DNA from: a virus
Direction: 5' to 3' (one strand)
Virus record (IMG/VR): IMGVR_UViG_3300047380_001224
Coordinates: 1 to 24,726 of that record
Length of the DNA: 24,726 nucleotides
Shown: positions 7,232 through 21,612 of the stretch, in pieces
Layout of the letters: each line of letters opens with the position of its first letter
How positions within the stretch are numbered: the stretch's first letter is position 1
Program-made: the position numbers and the translations under genes
The notes under the pieces: model-generated
What the model was told of the DNA's origin: nothing
What the model saw: only the letters and a program-made list of their open reading frames with translations
Databases searched by the model: none

Positions 7232-7500
7232 GCCATATAACCACCCAATACGAAACAGTAAGTATTGATCCTAGCGGATCAGTATCAGTACGAGTCAGCA
7301 AGATATTTGTTGACGATAATGAAGTAGAAGTAGCAACCGCTAGAGAGAAGCAATACTTTCAGAGGGATGCTACGATCACAGGTTTACCAGATCACTACCA
7401 GTCAGCTATCAACGCTTTTTGGGCAGGGTTACCTGCTATAGAGGAGCCAGTAGAAGAAGAGGCACCTGTCGAAGAGTCAGGTGATGACACTGAGGAATAA
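7228..7500 (+). CDS. Small tail-fibre-linked protein B, paralogue of A
   Basis: A 90-residue protein. The start at 7228 is chosen because it overlaps the previous stop in an ATGA and gives an N-terminus (MSHITTQYETVSIDPSG) that aligns with protein A; a GTG 39 bases upstream is less likely. Residues about 50-66 (TITGLPDHYQSAINAFW) repeat the core of protein A. The last 20 residues are rich in Glu and Asp, unlike protein A. Function is unknown. Possible roles are an accessory or assembly factor for the fibre. The -35 element of the next transcription unit lies inside its last codons. Confidence 0.72.
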   Translation: MSHITTQYETVSIDPSGSVSVRVSKIFVDDNEVEVATAREKQYFQRDATITGLPDHYQSAINAFWAGLPAIEEPVEEEAPVEESGDDTEE

Positions 7501-7512
7501 TTTTTGTATAAT
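7484..7512 (+). promoter_or_regulatory. Sigma-70-like promoter for 7550-7864 unit
   Basis: ATGACA at 7484-7489 (5 of 6 to TTGACA), a 17-base spacer, then a perfect TATAAT at 7507-7512. The predicted start is near 7519, just before the GTTAACGTTAAC palindrome and about 31 bases upstream of the gene at 7550. Seen by eye; not tested. Confidence 0.55.
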
Positions 7513-7520
7513 ACAGTAAC

Positions 7521-7532
7521 GTTAACGTTAAC
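7521..7532. promoter_or_regulatory. Palindromic operator candidate GTTAACGTTAAC
   Basis: A perfect 12-bp palindrome placed at the predicted transcription start of the 7484-7512 promoter, a classic repressor position. It is built from overlapping AACGTT/GTTAAC units, so two half-site registers exist. The cognate protein is not identifiable from the window. Confidence 0.4.
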
Positions 7533-7549
7533 TAATTTGTATAAATACA

Positions 7550-7735
7550 ATGGAAAATAAAGAAGCCGTAATTGAAGAAAACAAGGCAATATTGCAGGAC
7601 TTACTTAATCAAAGAAAGTCGTTATCAATAAAGCTGGACCAAGTATCTTATCTCGTTCAAGGGTATGAAAATACTATAAAAAACCTTGAAGAAGAAACTG
7701 AAGAACAACAAGAACCAGAGGTAGAGGAGGTATAA
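7550..7735 (+). CDS. Small coiled-coil protein
   Basis: A 61-residue protein that is almost entirely charged helix (MENKEAVIEENKAILQDLLN at the N-terminus) and ends in a Glu-rich tail. The heptad-like spacing of Leu, Ile and Val suggests a coiled coil. No family is recognised. It starts its own short transcription unit with the tiny basic protein downstream. No clear SD precedes the ATG, and the upstream sequence is AT-rich. A structural or scaffolding role is possible, but nothing in the sequence proves it. Confidence 0.6.
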   Translation: MENKEAVIEENKAILQDLLNQRKSLSIKLDQVSYLVQGYENTIKNLEEETEEQQEPEVEEV

Positions 7736-7741
7736 CCAATC

Positions 7742-7864
7742 ATGCCGTCACACTATGGAAAGATGGGTCACAAAAATGATCCTAACAAGAAAAAGAAAAA
7801 GCCAAACGCCAAGAACGGCAGAATGGCTGCAATGAAAAAGACTGGTCGTAGTAAGAAAGGCTAG
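7742..7864 (+). CDS. Tiny basic Lys-rich protein (40 aa)
   Basis: A 40-residue product (MPSHYGKMGHKNDPNKKKKK start, GRSKKG end) with more than a dozen Lys and Arg. GAGGAGG at 7726-7732, inside the end of the previous gene, is spaced suitably for an SD. Similar short MPxHYGK-type basic proteins recur in marine phage genomes (from memory, not searched), usually without a function. Nucleic-acid binding is a reasonable guess from the charge. Its end overlaps the convergent membrane-protein gene by four bases. Confidence 0.6.
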   Translation: MPSHYGKMGHKNDPNKKKKKPNAKNGRMAAMKKTGRSKKG

Positions 7865-8070
7865 TTTATACCCATTTGAGGGAAGTCGTCATAGTACCTC
7901 TTCCCTCTTTCTATTTCTGAGGCATCCATATATCCTTTGATATATCCATTCTTAAAATGTTCCTCAGCTTTTTCCCTGCTACCCTCACTTGAAACGACAG
8001 TGGATCGCCCCATAGTCCAGCCCACAAAGAAAAAAGTAGTAGCCACAGAGATAAATACTAAAATTTCCAT
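7861..8070 (-). CDS. Small single-pass membrane protein
   Basis: A 69-residue protein. Residues about 3-20 (ILVFISVATTFFFVGWTM) form one hydrophobic segment, followed by a charged soluble tail (about 22-69) with acidic and basic helices. It starts five bases after the DnaA-like gene, so the two are probably cotranscribed. Nearness to the holin and endolysin leaves open a lysis role such as an inner-membrane spanin, but the tail is short and no outer-membrane partner is seen. I do not recognise the family. Confidence 0.6.
   Translation of the reverse strand: MEILVFISVATTFFFVGWTMGRSTVVSSEGSREKAEEHFKNGYIKGYMDASEIERGKRYYDDFPQMGIN
7878..7910 (+). terminator. Possible intrinsic terminator of the 7550-7864 unit
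   Basis: GAGGGAAG (7878-7885) and CTTCCCTC (7900-7907) form a perfect 8-bp stem with a 14-base loop, followed by a short TTTCTATTT tract. It lies inside the 3' end of the convergent minus-strand gene. The weak T-tract lowers confidence. Confidence 0.4.
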
Positions 8071-8075
8071 AAAAA

Positions 8076-8420
8076 TTATTTAGTGTGTTGAACCTTTTCT
8101 AAAAAGTCTTTCATATTTAGCTTGTAACGAGCTTTCTCGTTATAGTTAAGGGTTTTACATATCCTTAATATTTTATTAGCTCTACGCTCATTTCTGTGCT
8201 TGTTGTGCGTTCTTGTGGTTAACAGGTGGATAATTGTTGAGTGATCCTTTCTTCCTAATAATTCCGCTATGTATTTGTAGGTAAATTCCATTTCTCTTAA
8301 TACAATAGCGCAGGCTTGTCTTGCGTCAACAATTTCTGATCGTCTACTTTTATCTGTTAATTGTCTCTCTGTAACGCCAAACTCTATGCACGTTTGCTTT
8401 ATAACTGTTCTTTCTATCAT
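8076..8420 (-). CDS. Stand-alone DnaA domain IV-like DNA-binding protein
   Basis: A 114-residue protein that corresponds to the C-terminal DnaA-box-binding domain only; there is no AAA+ ATPase or domain I. Residues 15-33 (FGVTERQLTDKSRRSEIVD) match the basic-loop region of DnaA, and residues 48-67 contain the helix-turn-helix with the DnaA signature (IAELLGRKDHSTIIHLL). The RKDHST core corresponds to the DHST motif whose His and Thr contact bases in bacterial DnaA. Residues 68-114 are a basic extension. The protein should bind TTATCCACA boxes but cannot unwind DNA itself. One perfect box overlaps its own promoter region and another lies beside the putative phage origin. It could be an initiator helper, a transcription regulator, or a competitor of host DnaA. 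Confidence 0.85.
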   Translation of the reverse strand: MIERTVIKQTCIEFGVTERQLTDKSRRSEIVDARQACAIVLREMEFTYKYIAELLGRKDHSTIIHLLTTRTHNKHRNERRANKILRICKTLNYNEKARYKLNMKDFLEKVQHTK

Positions 8421-8447
8421 CTATTGTTCTCATTAGTTATTGTAGAA

Positions 8448-8484
8448 AAAAATACCCCCCACTAAGCAGTCTAGCACTGGGGGG
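8448..8484 (-). terminator. Minus-strand terminator, or attenuator in the DnaA-like leader
   Basis: CCCCCC (8455-8460) and GGGGGG (8479-8484) pair around an 18-base loop with an inner CTA/TAG pairing; on the minus strand a TATTTTTTT tract follows. It can end holin transcription. It also lies between the promoter at 8547-8575 and the DnaA-like start at 8420, so transcripts from that promoter must read through it. A 14-codon minus-strand ORF (8515-8471) ends inside the hairpin. Confidence 0.7.
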
Positions 8485-8538
8485 TTGATGCTCGCTTTAG
8501 ATAAGGAAGAAGCATGAAAACAACCCTATCCTCAAGAC

Positions 8539-8575
8539 TGTGGATAAATCTAAGTAACCTTAATCAATTAGTCAA
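8539..8575 (-). promoter_or_regulatory. Promoter with overlapping perfect DnaA box
   Basis: On the minus strand TTGACT (8575-8570), 17 bases, then TAGATTTA (8552-8545). A perfect DnaA box, TTATCCACA on the minus strand, occupies 8547-8539. It overlaps the last base of the -10 and the predicted start site. The element lies upstream of the DnaA-like gene (start 8420) and downstream of the holin gene. It has the same -35/-10 pattern as the promoter at 13982. Autoregulation is an inference. Confidence 0.55.
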
Positions 8576-8593
8576 GGTTTTTGTTGTGCAGAT

Positions 8594-8989
8594 TTAAGGG
8601 TTTTTATTGGGCAAATTATCATCTTCTTTTTCTTTCTTAATCGTCTGAATAACACCAATGATGGCTAACATCAACGCTGCAATAGATTCGTATAGGTCAG
8701 GCTGTACAGTCACACCAATAGCACCAGCTATGGCGGTTACACCTTGATACGTAGAGGGTTCTTTTAATCGGGATTTTAACCAAGTCCAAGTCATAGTTAC
8801 GGCTCTTTTGTTAATTAAATATACTGTGAAGTCCATGATACCAATGATTTTGGCTCTACTCAATACCTTTTTACGAGACCGCTCAACCTTTGGCATGGCA
8901 ACTACCTTTACCTTCTTGAGTTTAGGCTCAGGAACAGTGCGGTTGTCTATAGTGATAGGTTTTATTTTCTTTCGCCTTTGTATTGCCAT
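8594..8989 (-). CDS. Holin-like membrane protein
   Basis: A 131-residue protein with a basic N-terminal half (QRRKKIK at 4-10, further Lys/Arg clusters to about 46) and a C-terminal part resembling small phage holins. RLKEPSTYQGVTAIAGAIGV (about 74-93) is followed by a second hydrophobic stretch at about 99-117 and a charged KKEKEDD tail. Two membrane helices with a short turn fit a class II-type holin that opens the inner membrane for the endolysin. The gene overlaps the endolysin gene by 28 bases, which supports the role. The long basic N-terminal extension is unusual and could be a regulatory or cytoplasmic domain. A weaker hydrophobic stretch occurs at about 48-60. Confidence 0.65.
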   Translation of the reverse strand: MAIQRRKKIKPITIDNRTVPEPKLKKVKVVAMPKVERSRKKVLSRAKIIGIMDFTVYLINKRAVTMTWTWLKSRLKEPSTYQGVTAIAGAIGVTVQPDLYESIAALMLAIIGVIQTIKKEKEDDNLPNKNP

Positions 8990-9378
8990 TTTCCATCCTC
9001 ATCCGCTTCGAATTCATGATACCGATCACCTTTGTGATCGCAATGTATAAACTTTTGATCTGGGTAGTAACATATACGCTTGTAGTCAGATGCTCTAAGC
9101 TCTTCCAAGAGTAGCTCCATGTTAGCGCACGTGTAATCTACGGCTCCTAGACCAGTAAATGTATGTTCGCTAGTTCCGCTTCTGCCGTGCGACAATTCCC
9201 AATCTTTCGAGCGATACCCACTGTTCTGAGATACTTGTACAGGTTGACCTATCCTGTGGCGTATAGGGTTAATTATGGGCTTGTGGTGCTTCTCTATCTT
9301 GTCTACTACGTGAATAGGAACACCCACCATCACTCTATCCACTAGAAATTCTTTAATGCTAAAATAATCGTAGTACAT
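8962..9378 (-). CDS. Peptidase M15-type endolysin
   Basis: A 138-residue single-domain enzyme, likely a peptidoglycan L-Ala-D-Glu or D-Ala-type carboxypeptidase/endopeptidase. SGYRS at about 53-57 precedes the zinc site. SEHTFTGLGAVD (70-81) matches the SxHxxGxAxD pattern of the M15 family with ligands His72 and Asp81. FIHCDH (110-115) supplies the last His ligand and catalytic region. It has no signal peptide, so export needs a holin, and the holin-like gene overlaps its 3' end. Its promoter lies at 9404-9432. The size is typical of M15_3-type phage endolysins. Confidence 0.85.
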   Translation of the reverse strand: MYYDYFSIKEFLVDRVMVGVPIHVVDKIEKHHKPIINPIRHRIGQPVQVSQNSGYRSKDWELSHGRSGTSEHTFTGLGAVDYTCANMELLLEELRASDYKRICYYPDQKFIHCDHKGDRYHEFEADEDGKWQYKGERK

Positions 9379-9403
9379 ACGTATTTTGTTAGTTAAATGA
9401 TAA

Positions 9404-9432
9404 AATGTAGGTAGTTACCACCAAAATATCAA
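9404..9432 (-). promoter_or_regulatory. Lysis-gene promoter
   Basis: On the minus strand TTGATA (9432-9427), a 17-base spacer and TACATTTT (9409-9402). The predicted start is near 9397, about 19 bases before the endolysin ATG. It shares the TTGAnn-N17-TAnATTT pattern with the promoters at 8547-8575 and 13982-14010. TACATTTT matches the Bacteroidota TAnnTTTG element at 7 of 8. A terminator lies directly upstream. Confidence 0.5.
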
Positions 9433-9439
9433 TACCAAT

Positions 9440-9464
9440 AAAAAACCCCACTGATCAGGTGGGG
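9440..9464 (-). terminator. Minus-strand intrinsic terminator 3
   Basis: CCCCAC (9446-9451) pairs with GTGGGG (9459-9464) around a 7-base loop; on the minus strand a TTTTTT tract follows (9445-9440). It lies just upstream of the lysis promoter. Confidence 0.75.
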
Positions 9465-9534
9465 CTACAAGTATGACTTATCAAAACTAATCTCAGCAAG
9501 AGATGTACATATAATATAGTAAAAATAAATCAAT

Positions 9535-9568
9535 AAAAAAAGGGACGTTGCTCGCACAAGTCCCCTTT
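9535..9568 (-). terminator. Minus-strand intrinsic terminator 2
   Basis: On the minus strand AAGGGGAC pairs with GTCCCTT (one bulged G), with an inner TTG/CAA pairing, followed by TTTTTTT. It lies downstream of the replication operon. Confidence 0.7.
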
Positions 9569-9631
9569 CATATCATAATAACGAGAAACTAACAAATTAA
9601 TGTTTTGTTTCATGGTATCAGGATTTTCCTG

Positions 9632-9662
9632 AAAAAAGATAGGGGCTTTCAAACCCTCTATC
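9632..9662 (-). terminator. Minus-strand intrinsic terminator 1
   Basis: On the minus strand GATAGAGGG (9662-9654) pairs with CCCCTATC (9645-9638) with one bulged A, followed by TTTTTTC. It is the first terminator after the last replication gene, 74 bases past its stop codon. Confidence 0.6.
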
Positions 9663-9735
9663 CATGTGAGAACTAATGAAAATGCTATTACATAAGTTTT
9701 TGATATAACAACTTAGCAATTTCATCGCCCTGAGT

Positions 9736-10002
9736 TCAGAAGGGCATTGCTTCTCCTTCTTTTTCAGCGATCCTAACTTCGCCTTCTGTGAATACTACTC
9801 GACCATTGCCGAGCCAAATTTTTTCCTGTCCTGCTTCTCGCTCTTCTTTGGACATACTCATAGCAACACTCGCATTGTTGCCGTATCTAGTTTCATCGTT
9901 AATAAATACGGTAACGTTGGCGTATGTGCCTTTTTTACCTTTGATTAACGCTTCTTTTGGTATTTTTGTTACGTCTATAGACGCATTGATTATTGTCGCC
10001 AT
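9736..10002 (-). CDS. Putative phage ssDNA-binding protein with SSB-like tip
   Basis: An 88-residue protein (MATIINASIDVTKIPKEALI start). I recall related INxxIDVTKI...KGKKGTY proteins of about this size, usually unnamed, from phages of Bacteroidota; this was not searched. The middle (TYANVTVFINDETRYGNNAS, about 26-45) looks like strands of an OB-type fold. The C-terminus is acidic and ends EGEAMPF, like the D-rich, Pro-Phe tip of bacterial SSB that recruits repair and replication proteins. It is the last gene of the replication operon, after the helicase. The ssDNA-binding role is inferred from the tip, size and context, and no direct sequence motif proves it. Confidence 0.6.
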   Translation of the reverse strand: MATIINASIDVTKIPKEALIKGKKGTYANVTVFINDETRYGNNASVAMSMSKEEREAGQEKIWLGNGRVVFTEGEVRIAEKEGEAMPF

Positions 10003-10064
10003 TTTTCTTGTAATTATATATTAAATGTTACTGTATGAGAATATATGAGACCATCTGAGTAAAG

Positions 10065-11315
10065 TCAAATCTTTGACTTAGCCACTTCTAAACCCATATC
10101 GCCATTATGGACCATATGGATGTAGTTGTGAGACAGTTGACCTCTCCTTGTTTTTACTAGCTTTACAAAGACCGATTGATAGTCGTGAATCTCACCATCT
10201 TTCAGTCCTTTTACGGCTAGATAGCCCTCATGATCTCTAGTTACCAGACCCTGTATCATATTAGGTCTAAACACTGAGGTCATGCAGTGAGCTACGTTCT
10301 TTATAGCTTGCGCCCATTGTGCGTCTTTGTACTTGGGTACAAGGCTCCAACCTGATCGGTTCATGGAATTAATCGTTACTTGACTAGGCACGATCACTAG
10401 CACATTGAGTTGTTTGGCTATGTCTTTCATAATTCTTGTTACGTGCTGAATCTCAAGAGTTCTACTATCAAACCTGCCTTGAGCGTACACTTCTTGGATG
10501 TAGTCTATCACCACGAAGTCAAGACCGTAATCCATCTTGTTGATCCTGCACAAACGTTTGATTTCGTCTATGTCATCCACAGAGTCAATAATTCGGACAT
10601 TATCAGCTTCGTAACCTGCCATCAGACCAAGTTGTTTAGCGGTGTTCACGTCATAATCCTCCATTTGAAACCACAGACCTTGATAACCCTGTTGAGCAAG
10701 TTTACTAGCCACAAACGTTGACCATTGCGTTTTACCATGACCAGAGTCAGCTAATACAATGTTGATGTCGCCTCTATGTAAACCCACGTCACTGTATAGA
10801 ATCTCATCAAGTTTGTGTACTCCTGTAACAAGTTTTTCCTTTTTAGGCTCGTTCATCTCACGATCAAGAATCTCAGTTGGAGTCAAGGCAATTTTCTGAG
10901 AGGTGTCATCCACCGTTTCATTGAGCTTATCAATCTCCATTAGGAGATCGTCCATTGTCGTGGTTGGACTATGGGCTATGTCATTGATGTTCTTGATAGC
11001 ATATCTAAGCCTGTTCTTGTCAGTGGTGTCTTTTAGCGTTCTAAGATATGCTCTGGTTTCTTGCTCTGAAGCCACGTGCATCATCATGAGTTCATAAAAC
11101 TCACCCACGTTCATACCCTCCATTTTAGCCACTAGGGTATCTTCATTGAAGACAACACCTTCTGAGTGTTGCTTGCAAGCCTCTAAATAAATTGGTCGTA
11201 AATAATTGAAGTACGTTGCATCTAACGTATTGAATATTAGTTCTCTATATTCTCTTTTAGAAATGAGCGTACCAATCAGCACCTCTTCTAGGTGCATCAT
11301 GTCATTTCTAATCAT
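10065..11315 (-). CDS. dnaB: DnaB-like replicative helicase
   Basis: A 416-residue hexameric-helicase homologue. Residues 1-115 form an all-helical DnaB-type N-terminal domain (MMHLEEVLIGTLISKREYRE near the start). The RecA-type motor follows: Walker A ADSGHGKT (189-196), catalytic Glu219 in FQMED, Walker B FVVIDY (267-272) and the VPSQVT sensor (309-314). It should unwind the phage fork 5' to 3'. The TOPRIM primase domain found in T7-type helicases is absent and no primase or polymerase gene is in the window. Primase and polymerase must come from elsewhere in the genome or from the host. The start overlaps the previous gene's stop. It is slightly shorter than cellular DnaB (about 450-470). 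Confidence 0.92.
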   Translation of the reverse strand: MIRNDMMHLEEVLIGTLISKREYRELIFNTLDATYFNYLRPIYLEACKQHSEGVVFNEDTLVAKMEGMNVGEFYELMMMHVASEQETRAYLRTLKDTTDKNRLRYAIKNINDIAHSPTTTMDDLLMEIDKLNETVDDTSQKIALTPTEILDREMNEPKKEKLVTGVHKLDEILYSDVGLHRGDINIVLADSGHGKTQWSTFVASKLAQQGYQGLWFQMEDYDVNTAKQLGLMAGYEADNVRIIDSVDDIDEIKRLCRINKMDYGLDFVVIDYIQEVYAQGRFDSRTLEIQHVTRIMKDIAKQLNVLVIVPSQVTINSMNRSGWSLVPKYKDAQWAQAIKNVAHCMTSVFRPNMIQGLVTRDHEGYLAVKGLKDGEIHDYQSVFVKLVKTRRGQLSHNYIHMVHNGDMGLEVAKSKI

Positions 11316-11551
11316 AACACTTCAAGCGCTTTTACTCTGCCGTAAGCAGTCAGCGTATATTTAGATGGATGTTTATTTTCGGATTGTACGACACCTGACT
11401 GTATCAAGCTACAAATTGTAGAAAACGTAGTCCAATATTTGTCGTGTCCTTTAATTTCCATTCTAGGCTCTATGTCACCATACGTAGCATGACCATTTTC
11501 TTTTAGTAATCTTAGTATTTGTTTTTCATTTTCGCTCATTTTTCTTCTCAT
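11312..11551 (-). CDS. Small winged-helix DNA-binding protein
   Basis: A 79-residue protein with the pattern of a winged helix-turn-helix. A helix (EKQILRLLKENGHATYGDIE, about 8-27), a recognition-like segment (TTFSTICSLIQSGVVQSE, about 41-58), and a wing ending KYTLTAYGRVKALEVL are visible. It lies between a nuclease and the helicase and overlaps both genes by a few bases (26 upstream, 4 downstream). It could be an operon regulator or a helicase-loading partner. The fold call rests on pattern only. An ATG two codons further in (MSENEK) gives an alternative start. Confidence 0.65.
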   Translation of the reverse strand: MRRKMSENEKQILRLLKENGHATYGDIEPRMEIKGHDKYWTTFSTICSLIQSGVVQSENKHPSKYTLTAYGRVKALEVL

Positions 11552-11963
11552 TAGGTTTATGTCTTAAATCGTTTTTTGTTACTGTTCCGTTCTTGTTAAA
11601 CGTATGCAGTACCCACCCTTTTCGGTCATACCACGTCATCGCAAGAACACGAATATACTTACTAGCAAAGGTCATTGCAAAACGAATATATGGTTTTTGT
11701 AAGGGTGGTTTATTGGTCTTGACTTGTACGAGCCATACATTAGTTCCATCCATAGCTATTAAGTCAAAACCGTCAAATTTTTGCTCTTGTGCGTGATCGC
11801 ACTCATGTTTCCAACACTTAATGCAAAGTCCAGAGAATAAATCCTTAGATTTTATAAATCGACCAGTAAGCTCTACTTCGTCAACAATCATTTGCTTGTC
11901 TCTGAAGAAGGATATTGCTTTAGTTATAGTCCTACGACCTTTTGCTCTGGCGCTCATAGGCAT
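11526..11963 (-). CDS. Mrr/Hjc-like PD-(D/E)xK nuclease with Cys-His cluster
   Basis: A 145-residue basic protein. FDGFDLIAMDGT (63-74, acidic Asp67) followed by VWLVQVKTN (76-84) gives the D...QxK form of the restriction-endonuclease-fold active site. Mrr-type enzymes use this form with Gln in place of Glu. Before it, C47-x2-C50-x2-H53-x-C55-x-H57 looks like a small zinc-binding knuckle. Possible jobs are Holliday-junction or branched-DNA resolution after RecE/ERF recombination, or a repair nuclease. The operon context favours recombination. ATGs at 11963 and 11957 are both possible starts. The C-terminal tail is Lys-rich. Confidence 0.65.
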   Translation of the reverse strand: MPMSARAKGRRTITKAISFFRDKQMIVDEVELTGRFIKSKDLFSGLCIKCWKHECDHAQEQKFDGFDLIAMDGTNVWLVQVKTNKPPLQKPYIRFAMTFASKYIRVLAMTWYDRKGWVLHTFNKNGTVTKNDLRHKPNEKKNERK

Positions 11964-12021
11964 AAGAAATCCCCACCACCACCGAAATGATGATGAGGGT
12001 CACTGTTATGGAAAAGATCAA
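11932..12021 (-). CDS. Possible 29-aa hydrophobic peptide
   Basis: A TTG-started frame covers the only gap in this tightly packed operon, between the ERF stop and the nuclease start. It encodes one hydrophobic helix (VTLIIISVVVGISYAY, residues 7-22) followed by a basic tail ending KRS. It overlaps both neighbours. Small single-helix membrane peptides are frequent in phages, but the non-ATG start and the repeated GGT/ATC triplets behind the composition leave this uncertain. Confidence 0.25.
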   Translation of the reverse strand: MIFSITVTLIIISVVVGISYAYERQSKRS

Positions 12022-12455
12022 AACGGAAGCTCATCTAGCATCGCATCCTTAACGTCTCTAGCACGTGCAGGTAGCTTTGCTTTAGGAGTTTTACTTCTTC
12101 CTTGAGCCTTATTTCCATCGTCATCCTCTTGAGCAAGCCCTAAAAGGGAAACGAGAGTATATCTGCGATAGTACGTTATACAGGATCCCAAGTCTTGAGG
12201 CTTAACATTTTCAGGCAATGGTATAAATGAGTCAATAAACTTGTTTGACTCAGTACAGAAAATTCTTGTACCCACACAACCCTGCTCAATCGGTTGTAGT
12301 AACAACAATTTTTCGGCAAGTAGGTGTGGCCTTACTACATCTATCACCTTGTCTAGGCTTACATAAGATGACTTAAAGAATGGGTTCTTCTTGTCCTTCT
12401 CTAGCTTTTCAATTTTGCTAGTTACATCTAATAGTTTTGTATATAGGTTTTTCAT
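12018..12455 (-). CDS. erf: ERF-family ssDNA annealing protein
   Basis: A 145-residue member of the Essential Recombination Function (ERF) annealing family. KNPFFKSSYVSLDKVIDVVR (23-42) and QDLGSCITYYRRYTLVSLLG (87-106) are the family's signature stretches, followed by the acidic QEDDDGNKA. It should coat and anneal complementary single strands, partnering the RecE-like exonuclease encoded immediately upstream in a Red-like pathway (the start overlaps the recE-type stop by four bases). The C-terminus is a linker of Lys/Arg/Ala and then MLDELPF, an SSB-like acidic Pro-Phe tip. A similar tip ends the protein at 9736-10002. It is shorter than P22 Erf (about 200). Confidence 0.88.
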   Translation of the reverse strand: MKNLYTKLLDVTSKIEKLEKDKKNPFFKSSYVSLDKVIDVVRPHLLAEKLLLLQPIEQGCVGTRIFCTESNKFIDSFIPLPENVKPQDLGSCITYYRRYTLVSLLGLAQEDDDGNKAQGRSKTPKAKLPARARDVKDAMLDELPF

Positions 12456-13294
12456 AAGTATGTAATTGTGTTTGCATTAGCTAGCCCACTTGTTTCGGGG
12501 CTAGGGTTCTCTTTCCATTTGCCGATACGTTCTTTTATTAGTTCTAGTTCTCGCATCGCTTTCATTTGGGTATCCTCATCCAATGAGAATACAGCACTAT
12601 TATATGGAAACTCTTTTTCTATTGCAACATAAAAGAATTGATCCATTGGAACTTCCAATAGGCTACAATAAAATGCTGCTTGTAGGTCATATCTAAATTT
12701 CCAGAAGTCTGCCCTGAAAGCTCTTTCAGAGGCATCTCTACAAGATTTCCAGTCTATAATCACCACAGGTTGTTCGTCTTTCACTAACAGACGATCTGGT
12801 CTTACTCTATAATTTAGCCCATGAAAATCAGGCTCATCTGTGAGAAAAGAATACTCATCCCATATGTCATCGTGGTCAAAGTCCTGATAGATGGATTGAA
12901 GTCCTGTGTTATCCACCGCAGATTTGTACATATACTCTATGGACTGCATCTCGTATTGAGTAATCACTGTTTGATCGTCTTTTACGCCTTGTTCAAACTC
13001 TGCCTTAAAGGTCTTGTATTCACGAGTCATTGAAGGAACAGAGATTTCTGGTCTTTGCTCTAGGATTCTCGCTACTATCTCTGTGTCATCAAACACCACG
13101 AACCTACGCACGAAGGCGAGCCTATCCTCAAAATACGTGTGCATAGCATCCCCAAAGATAAGAGCAGGAGTCGGATCAAATTTTTTCATAGCCCTTTGGA
13201 TAGAATGTTTTGCTACGGCTTTGACGAAGCTACTTGATACGTGGTCACTCATAGAGTGATAGTCTGCATTAGATAGGTCGCTATATATCTTCAT
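12452..13294 (-). CDS. RecE/ExoVIII-like PD-(D/E)xK exonuclease
   Basis: A 280-residue nuclease resembling the C-terminal catalytic part of RecE and related phage exonucleases. FGDAMHTYFE (47-56) provides the H-x3-E helix. RVRPDRLL (163-170) carries metal-binding Asp167, VVIIDWKS (177-184) carries the D-x-K pair Asp181/Lys183, and RYDLQAAFY (201-209) the QxxxY helix. It should chew 5' strands at double-strand ends to expose single strands for the ERF protein encoded next. All catalytic residues expected are present. It overlaps the preceding small gene by 14 bases. Confidence 0.9.
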   Translation of the reverse strand: MKIYSDLSNADYHSMSDHVSSSFVKAVAKHSIQRAMKKFDPTPALIFGDAMHTYFEDRLAFVRRFVVFDDTEIVARILEQRPEISVPSMTREYKTFKAEFEQGVKDDQTVITQYEMQSIEYMYKSAVDNTGLQSIYQDFDHDDIWDEYSFLTDEPDFHGLNYRVRPDRLLVKDEQPVVIIDWKSCRDASERAFRADFWKFRYDLQAAFYCSLLEVPMDQFFYVAIEKEFPYNSAVFSLDEDTQMKAMRELELIKERIGKWKENPSPETSGLANANTITYL

Positions 13295-13541
13295 AGGGTT
13301 CAGGAAAGTTTTCTATTGATATTATGGGGTGTTCAAAAGCGTCAAGAATATCTTCAATGTCTTTTATTAAGTCTTCATCGGACAATGCGATTAATGATAC
13401 AGGCACCTTTGAATATTCTAGGGGTATATCGTCAAAATCATAGCACGTTTCGTGTACGGAATAAACAGTGGCTACCCCAGATTTTTGCGCATATATCCTA
13501 TATTTAGGATAAATATCTCCGTCTTCATCACCGATTTCCAT
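13281..13541 (-). CDS. Unknown acidic protein, first gene of the replication operon
   Basis: An 86-residue strongly acidic protein (MEIGDEDGDIYPKYRIYAQK start, NFPEPYEDI end). No family recognised. Its position at the head of the minus-strand replication and recombination operon suggests an early role. Acidic small early proteins can be inhibitors or DNA mimics, but nothing beyond charge supports that here. Its start faces the divergent control region with the 22-bp dyad. Confidence 0.65.
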   Translation of the reverse strand: MEIGDEDGDIYPKYRIYAQKSGVATVYSVHETCYDFDDIPLEYSKVPVSLIALSDEDLIKDIEDILDAFEHPIISIENFPEPYEDI

Positions 13542-13552
13542 GTAAAATATTT

Positions 13553-13580
13553 TTTACTTATGTTTATGTCACAACATAAT
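13553..13580. promoter_or_regulatory. Divergent control region with perfect dyad
   Basis: In the 51 bases between the minus operon and the initiator-like gene, TTATGTT (13558-13564) and AACATAA (13573-13579) form a perfect 7-bp dyad spanning 22 bp (two helical turns). A plus-strand promoter candidate TTTACT (13553-13558), 16 bases, CATAAT (13575-13580) overlaps it. The minus-strand promoter is less clear. It is a likely operator for switching both operons. Confidence 0.45.
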
Positions 13581-13592
13581 AAATTTTTACTA

Positions 13593-13985
13593 ATGAAAAA
13601 ACCAACGTATTACGGAGTTCTACCAGCTGAGGTACGATACCATCCAGATTTAAACAGTAGCCAAAAGGTACTATACACAGAAATAGATGCACTATCAAGG
13701 AAGCAAGGGTATTGTTTCGCATCCAATAAATATTTCGCTGATCTTTATTCAATTTCTGTTAGTACTGTATCTCGATGGATCTCTAGGTTGAAGGAAGCAA
13801 GAGTCATAAAAGTTTTTTATGTGATCGAGCAAGGGAATGTAAGTATAAGAAGGATTACTCCCCTATGCAAAAATGCGCACCCCCCTACGCAAAAAGATCA
13901 ATACCCCCTACGCAAAAAGCGCAAGTATAATAATACTAAATATAATAATACTACTGATGAAATTATTTTGGGGGAAATTATTTGA
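13593..13985 (+). CDS. HTH_36-type replication initiator-like protein
   Basis: A 130-residue protein. The start at 13593 (MKKPTYYGVLPAEVRYHPDL) is chosen because it begins exactly where this initiator family begins; a possible ATG lies 27 bases upstream. Residues 24-70 contain the helix-turn-helix (KYFADLYSISVSTVSRWISR, about 43-62) characteristic of phage replication initiators and replisome organisers. The C-terminal third is low-complexity and basic and encodes iteron repeats rather than an obvious domain, so it is short for the family. Phage lambda O is a precedent for an origin inside the initiator gene. The protein probably binds the iterons at 13860-13919. A 22-bp dyad lies just upstream. 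Confidence 0.75.
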   Translation: MKKPTYYGVLPAEVRYHPDLNSSQKVLYTEIDALSRKQGYCFASNKYFADLYSISVSTVSRWISRLKEARVIKVFYVIEQGNVSIRRITPLCKNAHPPTQKDQYPLRKKRKYNNTKYNNTTDEIILGEII

Positions 13986-14001
13986 CATTGAATGTGGATA
14001 A
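13860..14001. other. Putative phage replication origin (iterons, AT 13-mers, DnaA box)
   Basis: Three direct repeats of the form CCCC(C)TA(C/T)GCAAAAA begin at 13860, about 13881 and 13904; their TA steps are 22 and 23 bases apart, about two helical turns. Next come two perfect copies of TATAATAATACTA (13926-13938, 13941-13953; period 15) in an AT-rich stretch. A perfect DnaA box TGTGGATAA follows at 13993-14001. Iterons plus an AT-rich unwinding zone plus a DnaA box is the standard architecture of theta-type origins. Function is inferred from architecture. Confidence 0.6.
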
Positions 14002-14010
14002 GTATAGATT
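13982..14010 (+). promoter_or_regulatory. Early promoter with DnaA box in its spacer
   Basis: TTGACA (13982-13987), a 17-base spacer, TAGATT (14005-14010; TAGATTTC in full). The perfect DnaA box (13993-14001) lies between -35 and -10. The start site would be near 14017, nearly abutting the ATG at 14022, so transcription could also prime or activate the origin. It has the same pattern as the promoter upstream of the DnaA-like gene. Confidence 0.55.
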
Positions 14011-14021
14011 TCATTTAACTA

Positions 14022-14237
14022 ATGATAACTAAACATACAGAACTAATGAATAAACCAGCAAAAATTACAGACATAGAAAAAGCTATTAATAGGCTAAATT
14101 TTTTAGAGATGCCATATATATACAGAGATGGTAAGATAATTGTAGATGTAACTAGCGAAATAAACTACGACTCTATAAGAGTAATTGTATCTGATGAATC
14201 AATATTAAAATTAGCGAAAGAATGGGAGGGACAATAA
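14022..14237 (+). CDS. Small accessory protein, unknown
   Basis: A 71-residue protein if read from 14022; ATG at 14046 (MNKPAKITDIEKAINRLNFL) gives 63 residues and leaves room for a leader after the promoter. Mixed alpha/beta pattern with several short strands (GKIIVDVTSEINYDSIRVIV). No family recognised. It is the first gene of the rightward accessory cluster, directly behind the putative origin, so it is probably made early. Confidence 0.55.
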   Translation: MITKHTELMNKPAKITDIEKAINRLNFLEMPYIYRDGKIIVDVTSEINYDSIRVIVSDESILKLAKEWEGQ

Positions 14238-14238
14238 A

Positions 14239-14406
14239 ATGGATCCACGAATAATTACAACATATACAAGAAAGATAAATACATCTGATGAAGAGGATAG
14301 GAATCATTTATTAAGTGTGTTGTTACACGCTTTAGATGATACAGAAAAGAAAAGGAATAAGGCTAAAGAACTAATAACTACTTTTTTATTGGAGGATCCA
14401 AAATGA
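14239..14406 (+). CDS. Small accessory protein (55 aa), unknown
   Basis: A 55-residue, mostly helical charged protein (MDPRIITTYTRKINTSDEED start, LLEDPK end). GGGAGGG at 14224-14230 lies eight bases before the ATG, a strong SD that supports the start. The stop overlaps the next ATG (ATGA). Unknown function. Confidence 0.6.
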   Translation: MDPRIITTYTRKINTSDEEDRNHLLSVLLHALDDTEKKRNKAKELITTFLLEDPK

Positions 14407-14687
14407 GCAAGCAATATACCTATAAAGAGGTTAATGACGTAATAGACACTGATGAAATCATTAAGAATGCTTTTATACGTGTAAAGGAGTGTATTTATGA
14501 AGAGATCATAAATAATATCAAGGATGCTGAACTAGACATATTTGATACACATAATGATTGTATTATTGATGAGGTGCTTAATGAGTTTACCATTCAGAGG
14601 AAGCCTAAAGAAGAATATGCAACCATGTTTGTAGACGTTGATGATATGTTATCGTTTTTGAAGATTAGACCTGATAAAGATGCCTGA
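14403..14687 (+). CDS. Accessory protein (94 aa), unknown
   Basis: A 94-residue acidic, helix-rich protein (MSKQYTYKEVNDVIDTDEII start). GGAGG at 14391-14395, seven bases before the ATG, supports the start. It overlaps its upstream and downstream neighbours by four and eight bases. No domain recognised. Confidence 0.6.
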   Translation: MSKQYTYKEVNDVIDTDEIIKNAFIRVKECIYEEIINNIKDAELDIFDTHNDCIIDEVLNEFTIQRKPKEEYATMFVDVDDMLSFLKIRPDKDA

Positions 14688-19566: not shown

Positions 19567-19717
19567 GTTGTTCAAGTTTCCTATATTTAAGACGAACTTC
19601 TTTGTGAGGTTATGGAACAAAACAAAACCCTTTAAATGTTTGGGTGCTATTTCTCATGGCAGGAAGTGTGAGGTACAATGCACCCTGTGCAAGCGAGCGT
19701 ATGCCCCAAAAAAGTAA
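19556..19717 (+). CDS. 53-aa Cys-rich putative zinc-binding protein
   Basis: A 53-residue basic protein whose last half reads CLGAISHGRK-CEVQCTLC-K (Cys28, Cys38, Cys42, Cys45, plus His34), a likely zinc site. AGGAGG at 19541-19546, nine bases before the ATG, is one of the best SD sites in the late region. It overlaps the nuclease gene (11 bases) and the terminase gene (17 bases). An SD plus both overlaps support a real gene. Function unknown. Confidence 0.5.
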   Translation: MKIKLFKFPIFKTNFFVRLWNKTKPFKCLGAISHGRKCEVQCTLCKRAYAPKK

Positions 19718-20504
19718 TTGGTCTGATTTATTGGTAAATGTGGTGGGACACGATCCACCTGCTGACTCTTTGGAACTCAGGAACTCATTTATCGAGAATT
19801 GTCTAGCGGATCAAGATGGTAACAAAGTCAGTCAAGCTGATATACACCTCACGATGCAGAAGGGAATTTATAATTGGGAGCAAGAAGCGCTATCTAAGAA
19901 CGCTCGTCTTAATGGCTTGATTCGTGCGCCTTATAACACTGGTAAGTCTCAGCAAGTTCCCATTGGTCTATCAGCTTACATGACCACGAGAAAACACGAA
20001 CTAGAAACATTGATTGTATCTGCTGACGGTGGCATCTCTACTAAAAGGATATTGTCTTTGCGTGCGATGTTCATGAGTGATATGTACCGATACTGGTGCA
20101 GGGAACATAACTTCAATCCTGTTGAGTTTGACCGCACCGATACAGGTTCGACCCAACGTATAATTGTGAAGAGTCGAAACCGTACAGGTAACCCCACCTA
20201 TGAGGCGTATGCAGTTTTGACTCAAACTACAGGTCAACGTGCTGGTGTATTAATTCTTGATGACGTGTGCAATGACGAGGATCGTATATCCACTGCTCGT
20301 AGAGAAACCGTATGGAACAAAGTGTCTAACACATGGATTAAGCGTGTTCACGATAAAGGTATTGTTTTAAGCGTTTGTACGCCTTATCATCCGAATGATG
20401 CTAATAGTCGGCTCATGAAGTCGGGCATCTTTAACGTATTACAAATATCGGTAAAGGAAGATAAAACAGGCTACAAAGTAGAAGAATGGAACAACCTAAA
20501 GTAG
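19701..20504 (+). CDS. terL: Large terminase, ATPase half (TerL-N)
   Basis: 267 residues from ATG 19701 (MPQKSNWSDLLVNVVGHDPP); in-frame GTG and ATG starts lie 57 and 45 bases upstream but would extend deep into the zinc-protein gene. It is the packaging motor ATPase: Walker A RAPYNTGKS (75-83), Walker B VLILDD (183-188) and a coupling motif LSVCTPYHPND (223-233). The chain ends at KVEEWNNLK, exactly where an intact TerL passes into its linker and nuclease domain. The nuclease half is a separate gene at 20827-21612, and a resolvase-like gene fills the gap, starting 19 bases before this stop. All ATPase motifs look intact, so a functional two-chain terminase is likely. Confidence 0.85.
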   Translation: MPQKSNWSDLLVNVVGHDPPADSLELRNSFIENCLADQDGNKVSQADIHLTMQKGIYNWEQEALSKNARLNGLIRAPYNTGKSQQVPIGLSAYMTTRKHELETLIVSADGGISTKRILSLRAMFMSDMYRYWCREHNFNPVEFDRTDTGSTQRIIVKSRNRTGNPTYEAYAVLTQTTGQRAGVLILDDVCNDEDRISTARRETVWNKVSNTWIKRVHDKGIVLSVCTPYHPNDANSRLMKSGIFNVLQISVKEDKTGYKVEEWNNLK

Positions 20505-20830
20505 TGATATACGCTAGATTTACAACAGACGTTGAGCAAAAACAAGTAAACTCAGTTAAGAACAAGATTAACTCTTTTGCACGTATGATTGACGCTAAAG
20601 TGGTGAAACAATGTTGGGAAATAGTCCAGAAAGGAGCCTCTTCTGAAAAGTTCAATCCTTTATTCGATGATTGCATTAAAAATGGATGGGGCATACTCAC
20701 TTACGACCTTAAAACATTACACGAACACCGTTCAGGTGGATTACATATAGTAGAGGAGGGTGCAGAAATGGGTGTCCCCATTTTTTTTGTTGATTCTGAA
20801 AGTGCGTTTATATCTATATTTAATATATGA
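20486..20830 (+). CDS. Degenerate serine-recombinase-like protein inside split terL
   Basis: A 114-residue protein with the layout of a resolvase catalytic domain. KVVIYARFTTD (5-15) corresponds to the family's YARVSTD, NSFARMIDAKVV and ILTYDLKTLHE (70-80) to the later core, and GAEMGVPIFFVDSE (92-105) to the final strand. The nucleophile Ser is Thr (Thr13), and the DRxSR arginines are replaced by DLKTLHE, so strand cleavage is unlikely. No DNA-binding tail is present. The gene fills the whole interval between the terminase halves, overlapping the first by 19 bases and the second by four (ATGA). It may be a decayed mobile gene or a domesticated terminase subunit. Reading frames step by -1 at each junction. 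Confidence 0.65.
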   Translation: MEQPKVVIYARFTTDVEQKQVNSVKNKINSFARMIDAKVVKQCWEIVQKGASSEKFNPLFDDCIKNGWGILTYDLKTLHEHRSGGLHIVEEGAEMGVPIFFVDSESAFISIFNI

Positions 20831-21612
20831 GAGAACCTGACAAGACTTGGGAAATACCCTTATGGGAAACCAACCATAGCAAACAACGTTTATTCCAAGA
20901 GGAGGCGATGGACTTTCTGTCGTATAAATTGGGATATGAAATGAGCGAGGAAACAGATGACCCAACTAGAAAAGCTTACAAACACTTTGACGGATATAAT
21001 CACTACCCTGATGGGAATCTTACGGCTCTTGATTACGATAGTAGCCATCCTGTCTGGCTTTGTGCTGATTTCAACAGGTCTCCTCATTGTTGGGCTTTGC
21101 TCCAAGTTAAAAAGGCTCGTAACGGTCTTAAAAAATATGTTATTTTCGATGAAATCTTCTCCAGAGAAGCGTTGACTACTGAACAGGCTCTAAAAGCAGT
21201 GGAATTACTCAATAAATGGGGTATTTCAAAGGTTTTATTGGCTGGAGACAACACATCTAACCAAAAAAGTGGTAATTATGGTCGTGTAGGTAAAAACGAC
21301 TGGGACTACGTGAGAGAAGTGTTCGATGAACACGACATTTCGTATAAAAACGAGCTAGACATCCAAAATCCGAAGCGAAAAGTGCGTGTAGACAAGGTAA
21401 ATAACGTTATTTTTGCTGGAAAGAACGGAGAAAGACGTTTATTGGTCAACACGAGGTGCGATCACGTCATAAAAGACTATATGTACTCCATCGTGAACGA
21501 TAAAGGGCTAAAAATCGACAATGGGGATCGTGGGCATATGTCAGATGCGACAGATTATGCTATTTGGCGTAATGAAAAAGGTAATAACGCTCCAATGTAC
21601 GTGCTGCGCTAG
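20827..21612 (+). CDS. terL: Large terminase, nuclease half (TerL-C)
   Basis: 261 residues. The first 30 (REPDKTWEIPLWETNHSKQR) are the usual linker after a TerL ATPase. The RNase H-fold nuclease follows: CADFNRSP with Asp81, YVIFDEI with Glu109, LLAGDNTS with Asp141, and GHMSDATDYAIW with Asp240 and Asp243. These are the metal-binding acids that cut concatemers during headful or cos packaging. The gene has no ATPase motifs; those are in 19701-20504. Its start overlaps the resolvase-like stop in an ATGA, so all three are translated in series. Its stop shares the CTAG at 21609-21612 with the convergent gene. Confidence 0.88.
   Translation: MREPDKTWEIPLWETNHSKQRLFQEEAMDFLSYKLGYEMSEETDDPTRKAYKHFDGYNHYPDGNLTALDYDSSHPVWLCADFNRSPHCWALLQVKKARNGLKKYVIFDEIFSREALTTEQALKAVELLNKWGISKVLLAGDNTSNQKSGNYGRVGKNDWDYVREVFDEHDISYKNELDIQNPKRKVRVDKVNNVIFAGKNGERRLLVNTRCDHVIKDYMYSIVNDKGLKIDNGDRGHMSDATDYAIWRNEKGNNAPMYVLR

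Follow-up and report, generated by a model that had tools for sequence, protein, structure and literature searches.

The DNA analyzed here (the window) is the full 24,726-base stretch of IMG/VR record IMGVR_UViG_3300047380_001224, an uncultured virus of 24.7 kb with a G+C content of 38.6%. It encodes a small protein corresponding to DNA-binding domain IV of DnaA, a replication initiator of the HTH_36 family, a DnaB-like helicase, an Erf annealing protein, and an exonuclease. It also carries two DnaA boxes, one overlapping the end of a promoter ahead of the domain IV gene and the other inside a promoter beside a putative origin. The features on the gene side are given below in the order of transcription, with L numbers denoting the loci used for comparison.

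8547..8575, minus strand: promoter 1, TTGACT-N17-TAGATT (-35 at 8575-8570, -10 at 8552-8547); TTGAC.-N17-TTAGATT is kept in relatives
8539..8547, minus strand: DnaA box 1, TTATCCACA, which overlaps both the end of the -10 and the predicted start site
8535..8541, minus strand: 5' pairing element ACAGTCT, predicted partner of the terminator loop, with a complementary change in L070, L168, and L204
8499..8531, minus strand: optional leader hairpin, GGATAGGG (8531-8524) with CCTTATCT (8506-8499)
8486..8495, minus strand: conserved linker GCGAGCATCA, present also in L070, L177, L178, and L204, which were found without the linker in the query
8446..8484, minus strand: intrinsic terminator CCCCCCA-GTGCT-AGACTG-CTTAG-TGGGGGG-TATTTTTTT, lying after promoter 1 and before the gene, in the same orientation as the gene
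8076..8420, minus strand: gene for a DnaA domain IV (Bac_DnaA_C) protein of 114 amino acids, with the start codon at 8420

A sequence-only reading of the window had reported perfect copies of TTATCCACA at 8539-8547 and 13993-14001. Both were found there on the minus strand, with no third copy in the 24,726 bases. The two sites fit the 9-mer TTATnCACA and are DnaA boxes at the level of sequence, with binding as a prediction. The same reading had put the chance expectation at 0.2 copies; dinucleotide shuffles gave 0.37, and 4 of 100 shuffles reached two copies. The copy number by itself is therefore only weak evidence and mildly unusual, and a chance origin of the boxes is excluded by sequence conservation in related IMG/VR contigs, not by the count in the window. 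The two TTGAC(A/T)-N17-TAGATT promoters lie exactly at the positions first assigned to them. A generic consensus scan of 7500-14600 returned 33 promoter-like sites against 24 expected, so that the promoters, too, rest on conservation rather than on consensus match. Hexamers and spacing of the sigma-70 type are present and kept at both. A Bacteroidota-type promoter was considered, since TAGATTTA resembles the Bacteroidota motif TAnnTTTG, but promoter 2 lacks conservation in the bases following TAGATT, and the sigma-70 type is preferred. Both boxes occur in seven contigs (the window, L155, L068, L070, L071, L073, and the record of L159/L188).

The assignment of the gene as DnaA-like held up well. 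Its product matches Pfam Bac_DnaA_C with an E value of 2.5e-15, and the AlphaFold2 model (mean predicted local distance difference test score, 89.6) matched the DNA-bound domain IV structures 3pvp and 1j1v in Foldseek at a probability of 1.00 and a template modeling score of about 0.6-0.7, with E values of only 0.003-0.01. The box-binding helix-turn-helix (HTH) of domain IV was found in the protein by both Pfam and the fold search. By contrast with full-length DnaA, the AAA+ domain III and the N-terminal domain I are absent, leaving domain IV and a helix, and because it has no AAA+ domain, the 114-residue protein is not a DnaA-type initiator. Residues R26, H60, and T62 are invariant across the proteins of 19 relatives. 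In a profile alignment to 1j1v, they fall on E. coli R399, H434, and T436, numbered by counting from the C-terminus of E. coli DnaA. R399 reads TTA in the minor groove, and the helix 434-451 reads TnCACA (PMC5742627).

The gene and the leader upstream of it are linked. Of 30 loci carrying the leader core, 28 continue into a DnaA_C gene; the exceptions are L156, which ends after 57 nucleotides (nt), and L150, which has no such gene. When the protein alignment alone was used as the query, which avoids the bias of searching with the leader, 21 loci were obtained and all 21 had the leader upstream, including the new locus L204. In L203, from the same record as L165, the leader lies about 300 nt upstream of the gene. 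The relatives' proteins are 29-96% identical to that of the window, and the leader is nearly constant. An upstream box is not a general rule for viral DnaA_C genes: TTWTNCACA was found within 250 nt upstream of none of 35 others (tested from L006-L067; 1.0 expected), and no leader of this kind was seen at other viral stand-alone DnaA_C genes (L006-L067; L080-L146). Domain IV without the rest of DnaA is common in environmental phages, and nothing specific on a role for phage DnaA-like or domain IV proteins was found in open-access text. The phage collection held no close matches to the portal, the helicase, the leader, or the domain IV protein, and a prophage-based host search of genome contigs with the leader core and the initiator alignment gave no matches. 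As a separate observation, in many HTH-initiator phages of L080-L146, the initiator gene is preceded at a distance of 0.7-1 kb by the gene for a different stand-alone DnaA_C protein, and some of these proteins have a longer C-terminal region.

The unit between promoter 1 and the gene, which the sequence-only reading did not describe, is predicted to be a structured leader RNA of 60-96 nt. Its layout is the box, GTCTT, the optional hairpin, GCGAGCATCA, and then CCCCCCAGTGCTAGACTGCTTAGTGGGGGGTATTTTTTT, the intrinsic terminator; pattern scans located it in over 20 IMG/VR contigs. The hairpin was examined in 16 sequences, in which 100% of cells were paired and three pairs showed compensatory changes. 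Its covariation score was reached by none of 500 shuffles, a score somewhat favored by the structure having been picked from the same sequences. It is absent from L003, L148, L151, L153, L154, L156, L167, L070, L168, and L204. The terminator has the expected G+C-rich stem and U run, with CCCCCCA/TGGGGGG followed by TATTTTTTT, and these are conserved; the terminator scan tool omits 8446-8484, as it allows loops of at most 8 nt.

The 5' element and the terminator loop covary. The pairing is CAGTCT/AGACTG in most leaders, ACATTTTAT/ATAAAATGT in L070, ACATTTTAC/GTAAAATGT in L168, and ACATTTTAC/GTGAAATGT with one G-U pair in L204, and cross-pairing of the majority type with the L070 or L168 type would leave 2-3 base pairs. 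The loops L2 and L3, which flank this pairing, measure 5 nt in each of the four types; one more pair, in L151, would leave 4. These pairings were counted directly from the sequences, as the pairing columns were displaced when the full set of leaders was aligned with MAFFT. The comparison indicates that the leader is an H-type pseudoknot with the terminator as its second stem. Rfam returned no match for the leader even at E values up to 5, and weak matches elsewhere in the window were below threshold, so that a known RNA family was rejected. The RNA motif and the combination of parts appear new in the sources searched, the parts themselves being of known kinds, and the comparative support for the leader as a new structured RNA is strong.

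Such a unit might also act in trans: the phage would make a small RNA from a dedicated promoter to a dedicated terminator, with the box tuning synthesis of the RNA and the DnaA_C gene expressed otherwise. Conservation is much stronger in the leader than in the protein, and the leader forms a complete promoter-RNA-terminator unit and includes the conserved unpaired GCGAGCATCA stretch, all of which suit this explanation. Trans action, however, would not require that 28 of 30 leaders stand directly upstream of a DnaA_C gene, and a full complement of the linker was not found elsewhere in the window. We regard a mainly trans-acting role as somewhat unlikely.

Another noncoding region of the window lies at 9379-9735 on the minus strand, before the endolysin gene (8962-9378). 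In more than 20 related loci, two blocks of it (about 9384-9445 and 9617-9735) are conserved and the DNA between them is variable. Terminator-like hairpins lie at 9444-9466 and 9540-9567, and the region is possibly another regulatory RNA. Elsewhere in the window, an ORF at 20486-20830 on the plus strand matches the Resolvase N-terminal domain weakly (E value, 0.001). It is flanked by ORFs at 19644-20504 and 20827-21612, which have no family match and which we guess to be the two parts of a large terminase, so that the ORF in the middle may be an insertion.

Box 1 shares its first T with the last T of the promoter 1 -10. Among 25 leaders, 21 carry TTATNCACA, with C, A, T, and G all occurring at position 5; this free position is, on the evidence of the alignment, as in a true DnaA box. 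T replaces C at position 6 in L003, L154, L158, and L150. The sequence-only reading had named loss of the boxes in relatives that keep the gene as the outcome that would count against it. In relatives with the gene in view, box 1 was intact (TTATNCACA) in 20 of 23, but such loss does occur in the remaining three. Because these three boxes are broken, box 1 is judged from the sequences to be usual, not obligatory. In L070 and L168, the box is placed 4 nt farther from the -10. L204 and L161 encode proteins that are 94% identical, and the leader has been exchanged (38% identity); the L204 leader keeps a box and gains a second, TGTGGATAA, in the promoter spacer. L165 has an extra promoter, whose -10 (TAGATT) is immediately followed by an inverted box.

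Two further observations concern this region. More copies of TTATCCACA lie beyond the two main sites, at L165:6798 and in noncoding regions of L161, L177, and L178; the latter three have a third noncoding box in common, which resembles a third boxed promoter. A repeat of the AAATCTGCACAATAAAAACC type adjoins promoter 1 (window 8579-8593; seen with L162, L165, L158, and L160). In some relatives it is located between the terminator and the gene, and it is a possible further operator or recombination site.

The second box belongs to the origin-side group of features, which are as follows.

13593..13985, plus strand: HTH_36 replication initiator gene, 130 amino acids, assigned by domain match
13860..13922, plus strand: three iteron-like repeats of the CCCC..TACGCAAAAA type inside the initiator gene, from the sequence and the alignment of relatives
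13923..13972, plus strand: AT-rich stretch, candidate unwinding element, nearly invariant at the DNA level
13982..14010, plus strand: promoter 2, TTGACA-N17-TAGATT (-35 at 13982-13987, -10 at 14005-14010), facing the rightward early genes
13993..14001, minus strand: DnaA box 2 (TGTGGATAA on the plus strand), in the spacer of promoter 2 and 7 nt past the stop codon of the initiator gene

Box 2 was intact as TGTGGATAA in all 12 contigs with promoter 2, while the adjacent spacer bases vary, in keeping with the conservation anticipated for it, and it lies 7 nt past the initiator stop codon wherever the initiator gene was examined. The repeats and the AT-rich stretch expected of an iteron origin are conserved, and the origin is putative. 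No box was found near the initiator gene in about 45 more distant HTH-initiator relatives, whose initiators are mostly 200-300 amino acids compared with 130 here; a box as a general rule for HTH-initiator phages was thus ruled out. As an observation on the in-gene iterons (13860-13922; L068-L076), their sequences differ between phages and the inverted arms stay complementary (TTCGTAAAAATACGAA, TTAGTAAAAACACTAA, and TTATGAAAAATCATAA), as though origin specificity and the HTH of the initiator were diversifying in step.

Could the boxes be by-products of conserved promoter and leader sequence, unbound as DnaA boxes? The ACA of box 1 lies in the RNA pairing element, four leaders tolerate the C-to-T change at position 6, and the window's number of copies is just mildly unusual, as such an explanation would have it. 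On the other hand, TTAT and C6 fall outside the pairing, position 5 varies freely with the rest of the box kept, L070 and L168 have the box 4 nt away from its usual place with respect to the -10, L165 and L204 have inverted or duplicated boxes at promoters, and box 2 lies in no known RNA element. We consider a by-product origin improbable.

The gene linkage, the conserved boxes, and the extra boxes at the L204 and L165 promoters fit, as sequence evidence, an operator role. The suggestion, made from the sequence alone, of a small DnaA-type regulator acting on itself and on origin-linked early transcription is partly supported. We propose, with about an even chance of being right, that the stand-alone domain IV protein is a repressor of both its leader and the origin-side promoter and that read-through of the terminator provides another level of control. 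The phage protein would bind canonical DnaA boxes. At box 1, at the -10 end and start site, it would block RNA polymerase and so repress its own leader; at box 2, between the -35 and the -10, it would block polymerase and repress origin-linked transcription toward the early genes, and it might in addition promote or restrain initiation at the iteron origin next to it. Transcription of the leader would normally end at the terminator before the gene, giving RNAs of 60-96 nt, and pairing of the leader 5' end with the terminator loop may form an attenuator governing how much transcription continues into the gene, or else a stable small RNA; the attenuator is slightly favored. Because the terminator and the pseudoknotted leader RNA stand in between, regulation is probably not a simple repressor loop. 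Sequence comparison supports the conserved box, promoter, RNA pairing, and gene linkage, and from these we infer the identity of the binder, repression, and read-through control.

Several observations weigh against this proposal. The C-to-T change at position 6 affects 3 of the 23 gene-keeping relatives (L003, L154, and L158), and the protein of L003 is 96% identical to that of the window. L164, L168, and L154 carry S or N at the position equivalent to E. coli D433. The contigs in the comparison are related, with overlapping ancestry. Finally, the box sequence is that of the host consensus and remains constant even where protein identity is as low as 29%, a pattern that would fit host DnaA as well.

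The main rival explanation is that host DnaA reads both boxes. The origin would then use host DnaA together with an iteron-binding initiator, the promoters would sense the host DnaA level, and the domain IV protein would compete for sites or act elsewhere. In its layout of iterons, AT-rich DNA, and a single DnaA box, the phage origin is like those theta origins of plasmids and phages that use host DnaA. The boxes do not drift with the fast-changing phage proteins, and they match the bacterial consensus TTATnCACA (PMC5742627). Yet the boxed leader goes together with the domain IV gene, no such box accompanies about 45 related HTH initiators, and extra boxes occur at leaders of the domain IV gene (L204 and L165). 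We hold host DnaA to be a tentative reading, on balance less probable than repression by the phage protein.

A bolder extension of repression by the phage protein, which we think unlikely, is that of a phage DnaA mimic. Here the lone domain IV protein would occupy boxes in its own leader promoter, the phage origin, and host oriC and switch replication from host to phage, its amount being set by a new class of pseudoknotted terminator RNA. If it is true that the protein also binds host oriC, this would offer a simple route for phage interference with host replication. The lone DnaA DNA-binding domain comes with likely target sites, conserved at two promoters, so that its function is directly testable.

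Among known systems, domain IV of bacterial DnaA (PDB 1j1v and 3pvp; Pfam PF08299) shares the domain and predicted fold with the phage protein, and the box-reading arginine and helix positions are kept. Unlike bacterial DnaA, the phage protein is without domain I and the AAA+ domain III, and hence lacks the DnaA type of ATP-driven origin melting and helicase loading, and it has an additional long helix at the C-terminus. Other viral stand-alone DnaA_C proteins (L006-L067; L080-L146) likewise have domain IV only. Bacterial dnaA is autoregulated by DnaA (PMC5742627), and its promoter is likewise a DnaA-box promoter ahead of a gene for a DnaA-box protein; in the phage, however, the protein is a DNA-binding domain only, and a predicted pseudoknotted terminator lies between promoter and gene.

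For the leader, the closest design found was the HMP-PP (thiS) riboswitch (PMC6478431), which has a compact terminator leader, an unusually conserved terminator loop, and a possible pseudoknot. The phage leader differs in sequence, gene, and layout and has no known ligand; its 5' end would pair with the loop, and the terminator stem can form simultaneously. On the origin side, iteron theta origins with host DnaA boxes, as in plasmids and, in the lambda type, inside the initiator gene, are alike in having an HTH initiator with in-gene repeats, an AT-rich stretch, and an adjacent DnaA box. The phage differs from these in that its DnaA box lies within a promoter spacer and that it encodes a DnaA-box-type protein of its own.

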